From positions 1 through 35,271 of the forward strand of contig JARFNK010000037.1 in assembly GCA_029167225.1 (NCBI GenBank): a DNA stretch of 35,271 nt. Direction: 5' to 3'. Below the pieces are notes generated by a model that had not been told where the DNA came from, searched no databases, and saw nothing but the letters and a program-made list of their open reading frames with translations. This stretch comes from Sphingobium arseniciresistens. Lineage in GTDB: Bacteria; Pseudomonadota; Alphaproteobacteria; Sphingomonadales; Sphingomonadaceae. Position 1 is the stretch's first letter. Each line of letters starts with the position of its first letter. The position numbers were made by a program, and so were the translations under genes. Below are positions 13,639 to 21,576 of the stretch, one piece after another.

Positions 13639-16806
<3,168 letters not shown>

Positions 16807-16811
16807 GAGCG

Positions 16812-17984
16812 TCAGTTCCCCCTGCCAGCGGAAGTCGCTGCGGCGGGCGCCGGCGATCCGGCGGCAACCTGCTGCGGCGCGACCGGTTTCACGACCGTGC
16901 CGGGCCGAAGGTTGAGCAGCCCTTCCACGATCATGCGATCACCCGGCTTCAGGCCGCCGGTGACGACCCACTTGTCACCCACCGAACGATCGGTGGTGAC
17001 GTCCCGCTGCTCGACCTTGTCCTGCGCGCCGACGACCAGTGCCGTCGCGCGGCCACGCGGATCACGGGTGATGCCCTGTTGCGGCACCAGCAGGGCCTGC
17101 TGGCGTACCCCTTCCACCAGCCGCGCCCGTACATACATGCCCGGCAGCAGCAGGCCATCCGGATTGGCGAAGGTCGCACGCAACGTGACGCCGCCGGTCG
17201 CGGGGTCAACGGTCACTTCGGAGAACTGCAGCCGTCCCTGCGTGGGATAAGTCTTGCCGTTGGGCAGCAACAGCGCGACGCGGGCACTGTCGCTGCCCCC
17301 GTTGCTGAGCCCGCCGGCGCGCAGCGCTTCCTTGAGGTCAAGCACCTGGGCGGCGGACTGGCTGACATCGACATAAACCTGTTCGGTCCGCTGGATCGTT
17401 GCCAGCGCATCGGCCTGCCCGGTCTGAACCAACGCGCCCGGCGTGAACAGCGACCGCCCGATGCGGCCGGAAATGGGCGCGCGGATGCGCGTGAAGCCCA
17501 GGTTGACGCGCGCCGACTCGACCGCGGCCTTTTGCGCTGCAACATCGGCGACGGCCTGCTGCGCGGCGGCGTCCGCATTGTCCGCATCCTGCCGGCTCAC
17601 CGCATTGATGCCCACGAGGCCGCGATAGCGCTGCGCCTGCAACCGGGTGGAGTTGATCGCTGCCTGCGCGCGGGCAAGGCCGCCCTGTGCGCTGCCCAGC
17701 GCGGCGCGATAGGGCGCGTCCTCGATCTCGTACAGCACCTGCCCGGCGCGCACATAGGCACCCTCGCTGAACAGGCGGCGGCGGATTATCCCACTGATTT
17801 GGGGCCGGACTTCCGACGTTTCCACGGCGACGATGCGACCCGGAAGCTCGTTGGTGAGCGTCACGGCTTCCGTCTTCAGCGTTACCACGCCCACGGTCGG
17901 AGTCGGAGTCGGCGGCGGCGATTCGCTCCCGCACGCGCTCAACAGCGTGAACGTCAACAACCCCGAAAAGCCAAGCTTCCGCAT
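16812..17984 (-). CDS. RND efflux periplasmic adaptor lipoprotein (AcrA/MexA family)
   Basis: Membrane-fusion protein that links the pump and the channel across the periplasm. The 390-aa protein has a short signal and lipobox LSAC with Cys18 ([18 protein letters not shown]), then a lipoyl half-motif ([18 protein letters not shown]), an alpha-helical hairpin with alanine-rich heptads, the second lipoyl half ([17 protein letters not shown]), and beta-barrel and membrane-proximal domains ([13 protein letters not shown]). ATG 17984 is chosen because the signal peptide starts there and GGAA lies 7 nt upstream. It is the first gene of the efflux operon, directly below the TetR-type palindrome. Confidence 0.95.
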
Positions 17985-18016
17985 AGATATTTCCAATGAT
18001 GCTAATCTGAACAGAC

Positions 18017-18036
18017 CGGAATGAACGTTCATTCCG
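18017..18036. promoter_or_regulatory. Perfect 20-bp palindrome, likely TetR operator
   Basis: The palindrome CGGAATGAACGTTCATTCCG sits between the efflux adaptor (start 17984, minus) and the TetR gene (plus). A core of this kind (TGAACGTTCA) is characteristic of operators bound by AcrR/TetR dimers. A TTGACC box at 18070-18075 on the minus strand would place an efflux promoter so that the palindrome covers the start of transcription, though its -10 partner is poor. Binding would repress the pump and probably the regulator itself. Confidence 0.8.
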
Positions 18037-18099
18037 CTTGCGGTCCCCCTAGGAGATGTGCCAAGCCAAGGTCAACTAAAAAGAGGGACAAGACTGAGG

Positions 18100-18717
18100 A
18101 TGACGGTTGCAGTGCAACATGAAACTGGCACCCGGCCCCGCGTAGTGCAGGCCGCCCGGCACCTGTTCTCAACGCGCGGTTTTCACCGGACGGCGATGGC
18201 CGATCTTGCGGATACCGCCGGCGTCAGCGTCGGCGCGATCTATCGCCTGTTCAAGGGCAAGGCCGACATCATCCAGGCCATTGTCGAGGAAGACGCGCGG
18301 CTCCAGCTTCACCAATTCGCGATGCTTGTCGAGCAGGTGAAGGGGGGAACCAAGCCGGTCGAGGCGGCCTTGACCGAAGTGATGATGCTGTGGCTGTCTG
18401 AATCGACAGAGGACGAGGCCCTCTCCTTCGAGATCCTCGCGGAGGCGCATCGCAACGAGAGCGTCGCGCACACCATCGCGGACCTGTGCCTGGCCTTCCG
18501 CGCGATGTTCAGGGATCTTGCCCGCGCCGTCAATCCACGCCTGCCCTCGCCCGATCTGGATGCGGCCGAGGAATTGCTGCTCGCTTGCGCCTTCGGCCTT
18601 GGCCATCGCACGCTTTCCGCGCCGCGCCTGGGCATCGTCGAAACCGCCGAGCATGCAGCAAAAATGATCTTCCACGCTCTCAACCCCGAGATCGCCTGTC
18701 GCATTAAAGATCGATAA
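18100..18717 (+). CDS. TetR/AcrR family transcriptional repressor
   Basis: One-component repressor of the divergent efflux operon. The N-terminal HTH domain is standard: VVQAARHLFSTRGFHRTAMADLADTAGVSVGAIYRLFKGKADIIQAIV, with recognition helix around VGAIYRLF. The C-terminal domain is alpha-helical and variable, as expected for the ligand pocket. ATG 18100 gives 205 aa, usual for the family, with GAGGGA 10 nt upstream; a GTG at 18058 would add 14 residues but its ribosome site is too close. The ligand is unknown but is probably a pump substrate. Confidence 0.92.
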   Translation: MTVAVQHETGTRPRVVQAARHLFSTRGFHRTAMADLADTAGVSVGAIYRLFKGKADIIQAIVEEDARLQLHQFAMLVEQVKGGTKPVEAALTEVMMLWLSESTEDEALSFEILAEAHRNESVAHTIADLCLAFRAMFRDLARAVNPRLPSPDLDAAEELLLACAFGLGHRTLSAPRLGIVETAEHAAKMIFHALNPEIACRIKDR

Positions 18718-19761: not shown

Positions 19762-19906
19762 TAGCGCCGATCGACATTCAGATGATGACGTGCCGAAATG
19801 GTGGTTTTTCGTGAGCTGGAGCGCAGCATACTAACAGTAGGCAAGCACCAGAAGCGCGGAAAATTGCCATTTGCAGGCCGTCAGGGCTGAATGTCGATCG
19901 GCGCTA
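19762..19906. mobile_element. MITE-like palindromic element with TA flanks
   Basis: Perfect terminal inverted repeats (GCGCCGATCGACATTCAG, 18 bp) lie at 19764-19781 and 19887-19904, each flanked by TA at 19762-19763 and 19905-19906. The pairing continues imperfectly inwards (TGACG, AAATGG, TTTTCG, CTGG, TACT blocks) to a 3-nt loop near the middle, so the whole 141-bp unit is one long hairpin. There is no coding frame inside. TA flanks are the target duplication of IS630/Tc1-mariner-type transposases, which suggests a non-autonomous element moved by such an enzyme elsewhere. The right TA is part of the stop codon of the LOV-HTH gene. Confidence 0.78.
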
Positions 19907-20527
19907 ATGCCCCGCCTCGATCGCGATGCGGATCGCTTCGGCCGTCGTGTCGACCTCAAGCCCGCGCAGCAGTGCCGATCGGTGCATCTTGATGGTGCGC
20001 TCCGTCAGCCCCAGGGCAAAGGCGATATGCTTGTTACGATGGCCCGCCGCCATCAGCGCCAGCACTTCTTGCTGGCGCCGCGACAGGGCCGCTATGCGCG
20101 CCCGCGCGCCGTTCCGTCGCGCTGGAGCCGCAACGGCCGCATCCCTGACCTCCATTTGCGATCCGAGGAAATATTCCAGCGTCCCCTCGGTATCGAAAAT
20201 GGGCGCTACGAGCACCGCGTTGCGGAACGGCGTGCCGTCCTTTTTGTAGTTCAGGATGTCGACAAGCACCGGCTCCCGCTCCGCGATCGCCGTGCGCATG
20301 CGCTGCGTCAGCACTGGCTCGGTATCCGGACCGGCCAGGAAACGGCAGTTCCTGCCGATGATCTCATCGCGCGCATAGCCAGTCAGCGCCAAGAACGCAT
20401 CATTGCATTCGACGATCGGATTGTCCGGCAGCCGAGGGTTGCAGATGATCGCGGCGATCGGGCTGCCCGCGATCAAATCAGACAAGGACATATGCCGTAT
20501 CGATTCCCATATTGTTCCATGGTCCAT
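19904..20527 (-). CDS. LOV-HTH blue-light-responsive transcription factor (EL222-like)
   Basis: Predicted flavin photoreceptor that binds DNA when lit. The 207-aa protein has a LOV (PAS) domain at about 23-128 with the diagnostic GRNCRFLAG, where Cys61 would form the FMN adduct. Gln124 in LGSQMEV is the flipping glutamine, and NYKKDGTPFRN is also typical. A LuxR/GerE HTH domain follows at about 146-207 (LSRRQQEVLALMAAG, ERTIKMHRSALL). This is the architecture of Erythrobacter litoralis EL222. ATG 20527 is chosen from the AAGGG site upstream; ATG 20491 or 20626 are alternatives. The stop is built from the edge of the MITE-like element. It is divergent from a FolE-like gene, a likely target. 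Confidence 0.93.
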   Translation of the reverse strand: MDHGTIWESIRHMSLSDLIAGSPIAAIICNPRLPDNPIVECNDAFLALTGYARDEIIGRNCRFLAGPDTEPVLTQRMRTAIAEREPVLVDILNYKKDGTPFRNAVLVAPIFDTEGTLEYFLGSQMEVRDAAVAAPARRNGARARIAALSRRQQEVLALMAAGHRNKHIAFALGLTERTIKMHRSALLRGLEVDTTAEAIRIAIEAGH

Positions 20528-20677
20528 ATGACCCTTTGGACATGTTGCGACAGGACTGCCGCGGAGCGCAAGACTGGATAAATCCGGCTTACCATAGACC
20601 GTTGGGAACGCATGCGCGTGCGACACGGACTTTGCGCAATCTACAGTTCAACGCTGAAATGAAGGAAGGAAGGCCGC
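20528..20677. promoter_or_regulatory. Divergent LOV-HTH / FolE-like promoter region
   Basis: These 150 bp separate the photoreceptor and FolE-like starts. A near-palindrome GCATGCGCGTGC lies in the middle (about 20610-20621). No certain promoter boxes were assigned. By analogy with other one-component regulators, the LOV-HTH protein may act here, which is inference. Confidence 0.4.
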
Positions 20678-21157
20678 GTGACGGACGAGAGCATGGAGTC
20701 CGTCCAGGCCTTTCCGAACAGCTTGGACGGCATGGCCTTTGGAAAACGGCGCTCCATTCCGCCGGCCCGCGCCGGAGCCGCCGATCAGGTCCTCCTGCTC
20801 CGGGGCATCCCCTTTCAGGCGCAATGCGACGACCCGCAGATCGCGATCACGGGCAAGGCATCCATCGCCTATGTGCCAAGCGACCGGGTCGCCGGGATTT
20901 CGACGCTGGCGCAGGTGGTGGAGGGCAGCGCCCATACCGTCTGCACGCTGGAAGGCATGGCGGCGAAGATCGCCCAGTTCATCTGGGACCATCTGGCCCC
21001 GCATGGCGTCGCCGTGGTCATCGAGACGGAACATGGCGGCATCAGCAACCGTGACAGGCCCTTGCCGGGCGTGCCGATGGTGACGAACCGGATGCTCGGC
21101 TGCTTCCTGGAAGAACCGGGCGGCGGCCGCAAACTGCTCTCCATGCTCGGCTACTGA
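20678..21157 (+). CDS. GTP cyclohydrolase I-like protein lacking zinc ligands
   Basis: A 159-aa protein with the FolE fold (T-fold) sequence: LLLRGIPFQAQC, TGKASIAYVPSDRVAGISTLAQVVE, HLAPHGVAVVIETEHGGIS and the C-terminal TNRMLGCF. In active enzymes the zinc site is C-E-H-H plus a later H-x-C. Here these read C50-D-D-P and H119-G-G, so one Cys stays while the second Cys and both histidines of C-E-H-H are lost. The guanine-binding glutamate (E92) is kept, but its preceding Gln is Leu. The first helices of normal FolE are also missing. It is unlikely to make dihydroneopterin triphosphate; it may bind a purine or pterin. GTG 20678 has GGAAGG upstream. Confidence 0.82.
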   Translation: MTDESMESVQAFPNSLDGMAFGKRRSIPPARAGAADQVLLLRGIPFQAQCDDPQIAITGKASIAYVPSDRVAGISTLAQVVEGSAHTVCTLEGMAAKIAQFIWDHLAPHGVAVVIETEHGGISNRDRPLPGVPMVTNRMLGCFLEEPGGGRKLLSMLGY

Positions 21158-21210
21158 CGTCCCAGATCAGGACAGTCCGGCACGGATGTGCAGCACATAA
21201 CCGCAATTTT

Positions 21211-21231
21211 ATGTTCGATTTTATCGAACAT
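21211..21231 (+). terminator. AT-rich hairpin after the FolE-like gene
   Basis: A perfect 9-bp inverted repeat (ATGTTCGAT / ATCGAACAT) with a TTT loop lies 53 bp after the FolE-like stop and is followed by TTTTC. It could be a weak intrinsic terminator. Its AT-rich stem and position 100 bp before the next start also suit an operator. Confidence 0.45.
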
Positions 21232-21330: not shown

Positions 21331-21576
21331 ATGTCACAGGCTCTGGCACTGATATTGGGATCGTGCAGGTCACGGGCAGACATGCTCCAGATCATGGAGC
21401 GCTTCCCGCGGCTGCTTCCCCTGGCCCTCTATGGCGCCGCCGCACTGGCGGCGATCGTCTTGCTGTTCCTGTGGGTCGAGAGCGCCCTTGGCGACGCCCT
21501 GCCAGCCGCACTCGTGACGATGATGATCGCGCTCGCCTTCATATCGCTGACACAACTCGGCGAGGGCAGGCGCTGA
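21331..21576 (+). CDS. Small membrane protein of unknown function (81 aa)
   Basis: An 81-aa frame with two strongly hydrophobic segments, roughly residues 29-47 (LPLALYGAAALAAIVLLFLW) and 57-74 (LPAALVTMMIALAFISL), joined by a short acidic turn. The N-terminus is mildly basic. ATG 21331 has AAGGA about 8 nt upstream; ATG 21382 would give a shorter form. No family is recognised. It follows the FolE-like gene after 173 bp and converges on the ATP12 gene. Confidence 0.6.
   Translation: MSQALALILGSCRSRADMLQIMERFPRLLPLALYGAAALAAIVLLFLWVESALGDALPAALVTMMIALAFISLTQLGEGRR

Follow-up and report, generated by a model that had tools for sequence, protein, structure and literature searches.

The window analyzed here, a stretch of 35,271 nt from Sphingobium arseniciresistens (assembly GCA_029167225.1, contig JARFNK010000037.1), carries two divergent genes, one for a LOV-HTH photoreceptor and one for a homolog of GTP cyclohydrolase I (FolE), with a short block between them that recurs at related loci [Table 1]. 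Both reading frames lie head to head, where an earlier sequence-only reading had placed them. Elsewhere in the window (13639-18717), RND efflux pump-like genes and an adaptor, recognized from sequence, are followed by a TetR-type regulator (TetR_N 55.4 bits).

Table 1. Features of the divergent gene pair, with positions in the window.
Feature	Position	Strand	Basis or remark
LOV-HTH (EL222-type) blue-light regulator	19904..20491	(-)	195 codons plus stop, ATG at 20491; PAS_9, GerE and EL222 matches
Operator-like block GACCCTTTGGACATGTTGCG	20530..20549	(+)	Aligned block in 18 LOV-folE gaps
Ribosome-binding-like AAGGAAGGAAGG	20662..20673	(+)	4 nt ahead of the GTG that starts the FolE-like frame; read from sequence
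FolE (GTP cyclohydrolase I) homolog, T-fold core only, zinc site lost	20678..21157	(+)	159 aa; Pfam, NCBIfam
C-D-D-P replacing C-E-H-H, codons 50-53	20825..20836	(+)	Alignments
Kept guanine-binding Glu, codon 92	20951..20953	(+)	Alignment; role from the available text of PMC4005822
H-G-G replacing H-x-C, codons 119-121	21032..21040	(+)	Alignments
Terminator-like hairpin 3′ of the FolE-like gene	21211..21231	(+)	Near chance: 1 found against 0.7 expected

The photoreceptor gene and its FolE-like neighbor

In a Pfam profile search, the LOV-HTH protein scores 63.4 bits for PAS_9 and 54.2 bits for GerE (cut-off 23.5), and EL222 is its best PDB match (E 5.5e-65, residues 49-239 of the longer reading frame). 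As noticed previously, the LOV domain carries the NCRFLAG motif with its Cys together with the Gln, and a LuxR-type HTH makes up the C-terminal part. The adduct residue C49 and Q112, numbered from the ATG at 20491, are invariant in all 12 rows of alignment A1. The same residues had been named Cys61 and Gln124; the residues stand, while that numbering counts from the ATG at 20527, which is not the start we favor. GC3 is 0.49 in codons 1-45 of the longer frame and 0.80 in the remainder, and nearly all relatives looked at have an ATG at the position equivalent to 20491. The gene therefore most likely starts at ATG 20491, not at 20626.

EL222 of Erythrobacter litoralis (PDB 3p7n, 8a5r) has the same domain order and length, and the same adduct Cys, Gln, and LuxR HTH. 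In sequence, however, the two have diverged: the window protein shares 64 to 70% with its 12 relatives in A1, a set that does not include EL222. By its domains the window protein is of the EL222 type, and it would accordingly be expected to dimerize and bind DNA in response to light. A second LOV-HTH-type match in the window genome, 45% identical to the one discussed here, is located on contig C23, 177050-177592 (-).

The divergent gene encodes a protein that matches the Pfam GTP_cyclohydroI profile (PF01227) with 82.6 bits (cut-off 27), residues 33-148 covering positions 54-169 of the 179 in the profile. All its best PDB matches are FolE (lowest E 2.4e-15), and from residue 35 on it aligns without gaps with the Thermus FolE 1wm9. 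These matches put the homology to FolE far above chance. On the NCBIfam folE equivalog TIGR00063, it reaches 65.8 bits and falls below the cut-off of 181.6, which is passed by the LOV-paired FolE of locus L118 (204.6) and by the housekeeping FolE of the window genome (209.8). The latter, complete and canonical, is encoded on contig C33 and is the one other FolE above the Pfam cut-off in the window genome.

According to the available text of PMC4005822, Cys108, His111, and Cys179 are the zinc ligands of Thermus FolE and Glu150 binds the guanine. In the 1wm9 alignment, Cys108 corresponds to C50 and is kept, whereas P53 and G121 take the places of His111 and Cys179, which leaves C50 as the only residue of the two-Cys-one-His zinc site; Glu150 corresponds to E92. 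The replacement of C-E-H-H by C-D-D-P and of H-x-C by H-G-G, and the retention of the guanine-binding Glu, had been read from the sequence and are borne out by the alignments. The His next to the zinc site, which we take to have a catalytic role, is also lost and has become D52. Pocket Lys, Arg, and Gln residues, which presumably contact the substrate, are replaced by T, Q, and L, respectively. Of 11 pocket columns picked by such presumed roles, five are kept, and E92, a Ser, and a His belong to these. The N-terminal helices had been described as absent, and a search of all six frames of 20301-21200 revealed no remnant of the N-terminal FolE domain above noise, frameshifted or otherwise.

Relative to GTP cyclohydrolase I (TIGR00063, PF01227), the window protein hence shares the T-fold core and the guanine Glu, but not the N-terminal domain, two of the three zinc ligands, the neighboring His, or the pocket Lys, Arg, and Gln. 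In plants, GTP cyclohydrolase I is a tandem protein: its two fused FolE-like domains are needed together and are inactive once separated, as stated in the available text of PMC5372827, whereas the window gene encodes one short stand-alone core.

A conserved LOV-HTH, folE, and FAD-oxidoreductase module

A scan of named genomes gave 346 LOV-HTH loci, of which the best 80 (L109-L188) were taken; as gene calling was rough, the module counts rest on tblastn. In 55 of these 80 loci, folE is divergent from, and less than 500 nt away from, the LOV-HTH gene. The pairing is found in Sphingobium, Novosphingobium, Sphingomonas, Sphingopyxis, Rhizorhabdus, and Tsuneonella. C-E-H-H is present in 55/55 paired FolEs and H-x-C in 54/55, the remaining one being cut by a contig end. 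Behind folE, on the same strand, a gene for an FAD-dependent oxidoreductase of the amine-oxidase family follows in every paired locus with room for it (53/53). In the 25 loci lacking an adjacent folE, this oxidoreductase gene is itself divergent from the LOV gene in 17 but not in the other eight; it may be a more constant partner of LOV-HTH genes than folE. A photolyase or photolyase-related gene accompanies 13 of the 55 paired and 11 of the 25 unpaired loci and is therefore not a fixed part of the module.

Other collections gave a similar arrangement; they overlap with each other (e.g., G350 and L110 are one contig), such that the counts are not additive, and the zinc motif was read in the fetched loci. 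A second folE lies head to head with LOV-HTH in at least nine of 93 other Sphingobium genomes, with C-E-H-H in 9/9. Across the family, 68 of 298 sampled genomes have a LOV-HTH match at E<=1e-60. Among 28 newly fetched family loci (L081-L108), eight have the divergent folE arrangement, one (L105) has a co-directional folE downstream of LOV-HTH, and in 19 the 1.5 kb flanks contain no folE.

These data show that the LOV-HTH/folE pairing is a conserved module of Sphingomonadaceae; in searches of the open-licence literature, we found no earlier description of the pairing or of a zinc-dead FolE. In the window as well, the folE-like gene is divergent from the LOV-HTH gene with the conserved block in between. 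The sequence-only reading had paired the photoreceptor with a zinc-dead FolE and named a survey of LOV-HTH neighborhoods as one check. The head-to-head link was found, and it is wider than the window itself shows. The zinc-dead nature of the partner was not supported by the same survey: from the motifs, the link conserved across loci is to a FolE with a complete zinc site, and the zinc-dead form is a derivative of single lineages.

The LitR/short-LOV light regulon of Pseudomonas putida and P. mendocina, in which folE, photolyase, SDR, and FAD oxidoreductase genes are light-inducible (PMC9758184), resembles the LOV-folE loci in gene content. Its regulator, however, is LitR with a separate short LOV protein and not a one-piece LOV-HTH, and loss of zinc ligands is not among the features described for its FolE in the available text of that paper. 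Sphingomonads also carry a second folE away from any LOV gene: on the Sphingomonas parapaucimobilis plasmid NZ_CP155750.1 (L258) its neighbors are genes for an SDR, dihydroneopterin aldolase, and formyltetrahydrofolate deformylase as well as formaldehyde genes. The LOV link is thus not universal for second folEs in this group.

The block between the two genes (CCCTTTGGACATGTTG in the window) recurs in the gaps of LOV-folE pairs and also precedes LOV genes that lack folE (G118 was left out of the block alignment). A loose match, 10 of 13 bases, is present in 54 of 81 LOV loci; four of these overlap the start codon and do not represent the block. In 50 of the 81 loci the block is positioned 42-73 nt before the LOV start, and the others have variants below the cut. 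Since it reads AAAGGG on the strand of the LOV gene, the block was considered as a ribosome-binding site for LOV; this was rejected, because it lies some 40-75 nt from the conserved LOV start, also in loci that have in-frame stops in the interval. The available text of PMC10521638 quotes the sequence of C120, an operator of EL222. The block resembles C120, which adds to the likeness between EL222 and the LOV proteins discussed here, but it fails the 12-bp EL222 consensus; that consensus matches 29 times in the window against 26.5 expected by chance. Control by light through this candidate operator is conceivable on these grounds.

In the window genome, TTTGGNCATGTTG has two exact and 33 one-mismatch sites, against six for the reversed control pattern. 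Thirty of these 35 sites were checked with a rough gene caller: one is the window's own, 22 are inside called genes, and seven are intergenic. The excess over the reversed control is unexplained and mostly within genes, and no regulon is claimed from it. The second exact site is on contig C55, 270065-270077 (+), in locus L190.

Loss of the zinc site in the window lineage and in Sphingopyxis

Searches of 397 family genomes for an orthologue of the zinc-dead FolE gave no match at E<=1e-40, a cut-off placed just below the best intact FolE, and 289 genomes of the class gave none at E<=1e-41. None was found in 94 Sphingobium genomes, where the best other match is 52% identical, or among named genomes when the FolE-like protein was the sole query; 158 plasmid records matched it, all at less than 60% identity. 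The FAD oxidoreductase has no match in the whole window genome, whereas the same query matches in seven of nine other genomes tested. Where relatives carry it, the window has an ORF of 81 aa, 21331-21576 (+), which contains a hydrophobic stretch and matches no Pfam family. With its FolE copy changed and the FAD oxidoreductase missing, the window thus holds a changed or dismantled version of the conserved module. The neighboring ATP12 gene is closest to those of the Sphingobium genomes searched, with at most 71% identity in this genus-only comparison; the window species lies deep in the genus.

In a tree of 42 rows, covering 22 of the 29 family folE loci L004-L032 with three more present as pairs, the window FolE groups with the LOV-paired FolEs of Sphingobium, but its branch is 5.76 changes per site long and the support is 5/0, which leaves this placement unsure. 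Rows oth_G177, oth_G035, and oth_G118 of the tree are wrongly cut ORFs, and the FolE gene of pair_G118 does not lie divergent to the LOV gene.

A second zinc-dead FolE, of full length, is encoded in Sphingopyxis sp. H073 (L143, 3207-3902 (-)) and S. soli BL03 (L146, 1548-2234 (-)). Here, C-E-H-H has become R-E-T-D and H-x-C has become H-V-D. A distance of 4.6-6 kb separates the gene from that for LOV-HTH, and it shares its strand with the FAD oxidoreductase gene and with photolyase and photolyase-related genes. In L133 and L142, two further LOV loci, an intact FolE is encoded some 7.6 kb from the LOV gene, and the zinc loss in Sphingopyxis therefore looks derived. At E<=1e-45, the Sphingopyxis form has a single match in 397 family genomes, a canonical FolE with 48% identity. 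Like the window protein, it has lost zinc ligands in the neighborhood of a LOV-HTH gene and has kept the guanine Glu, the pocket Ser, and the His, although by a hand count these three shared residues are within chance (about 0.2). Unlike the window protein, it has an N-terminal domain and other substitutions. With only 30-31% identity between the two and this difference in architecture, the Sphingopyxis loss seems to have occurred separately. Between the two Sphingopyxis species, dN/dS is 0.31-0.46 for the zinc-dead FolE compared with 0.05-0.09 for LOV, FAD oxidoreductase, and photolyase, which suggests that constraint on the zinc-dead copy is relaxed, though not absent.

For the window gene, several lines of evidence bear on whether it is kept or decaying. 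Its 125-codon core has no indel relative to its relatives, GC3 is 0.86 in the core and 0.84 in the new N-terminus, and the ribosome-binding-like AAGGAAGGAAGG at its GTG start likewise speaks for a live gene. A branch codon model, with 15 of the 42 tree rows (wrongly cut rows and pair_G118 excluded) and the topology fixed from the tree, gave an omega of 0.12 for the window branch, a rough value since the branch is very long, synonymous sites are saturated, and time before and after the loss is mixed. Omega = 1 is rejected (lnL -2732.37 versus -2718.56) and the background value of 0.048 is not (lnL -2718.78). Moreover, of the 72 columns that are invariant in the 25 of the 55 paired FolEs in alignment A2, the window protein keeps 26/39 hydrophobic and 9/11 Gly/Pro, but 6/22 polar ones (Fisher p 0.004). 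When neutral evolution was simulated to the same identity, hydrophobic retention this high occurred in <=0.7% of the runs and polar loss this large in <=1.4%. Neutral decay therefore fits poorly, and the gene looks to be under selection and not dead. Since only one sequence of the zinc-dead, core-only form is known, selection on the present form is not measurable. We consider it somewhat more likely than not that the gene product is a folded non-enzyme that is being kept.

Late decay is the main alternative, possible if somewhat unlikely. In this scenario, the second FolE became dispensable after loss of the FAD oxidoreductase, and the ORF is a functionless remnant that has not yet acquired a stop. 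The missing partner gene, the remaining housekeeping FolE, the truncated N-terminus, and the lack of an orthologue in the Sphingobium, family, and class samples would all be expected, and between 8.5 and 43% of the neutral runs likewise end with an open frame. In addition, 25 of the best 80 LOV loci have no adjacent folE, so folE is often gained or lost, and the relaxed dN/dS of the zinc-dead Sphingopyxis copy points in the same direction. Decay fits less easily with a core free of indels, high GC3, an omega below 1, and the preferential retention of hydrophobic invariants.

A probable light-linked FolE without catalysis

The best reading of the window FolE is that a second, light-linked FolE has become a folded protein without enzymatic activity, one that may be in the process of being lost. 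In the proposed mechanism, blue light would generate a flavin-Cys adduct and thereby a LOV-HTH dimer, which would bind the block between the genes and activate both the LOV-HTH gene and the folE side. In the relatives, the output would be an extra zinc-dependent GTP cyclohydrolase I that produces dihydroneopterin triphosphate for folate or pterin synthesis. In the window lineage, the FAD oxidoreductase is missing, and FolE has been stripped of its N-terminal domain, two of three zinc ligands, the neighboring His, and several substrate-binding side chains, with its hydrophobic core and reading frame kept. Because of these losses, the switch would most likely drive a non-catalytic T-fold protein. 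Via E92, this protein may hold a purine or pterin, or it may associate with the housekeeping FolE; binding of such a ligand is possible, and little beyond the kept E92 points to it. On balance, we slightly favor the gene pair being a derived copy of the conserved light-linked module that now drives a folded non-enzyme.

The FolE core might instead have been re-purposed as a new, metal-independent T-fold enzyme. FolB and FolX are zinc-free T-fold enzymes that act on pterins with an anchoring Glu, and the FolE-like protein has the size of such single T-fold enzymes; E92, the pocket Ser, and the His are kept. We nevertheless regard this as improbable: no new conserved catalytic set is visible, with one sequence only; the best matches are all FolE; and the three residues shared with the Sphingopyxis protein are no more than chance could give. 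That the contig is misassembled or a contaminant is very improbable, despite an assembly of 6.6 Mb in 120 contigs with 6.02% reported contamination, as the changes are substitutions spread across the core with no indels, the ATP12 neighbor is closest to Sphingobium, and composition is even along the window.

Returning to the folded non-enzyme, one tentative and rather doubtful extension is that second FolEs in LOV-HTH loci became zinc-free T-fold pseudoenzymes more than once, core-only in Sphingobium and full-length in Sphingopyxis, and that in the light these bind pterins or purines or modulate FolE instead of working as enzymes.

EL222 serves as a tool in optogenetics. Among the matches listed in our literature search for its natural regulon, tool papers and reviews predominated. 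In this context, the conserved module with its steadily placed block is a testable candidate for the natural output of EL222-type photoreceptors, and that output may be a light-boosted supply of pterin or folate. The known part of the locus is the EL222-type switch; what it is linked to is an enzyme gene that, in one lineage, has apparently turned into a gene for a non-enzyme. As the zinc site was lost in two different ways, in the window and in two Sphingopyxis, these loci may provide a system for understanding what a FolE core can do without catalysis.
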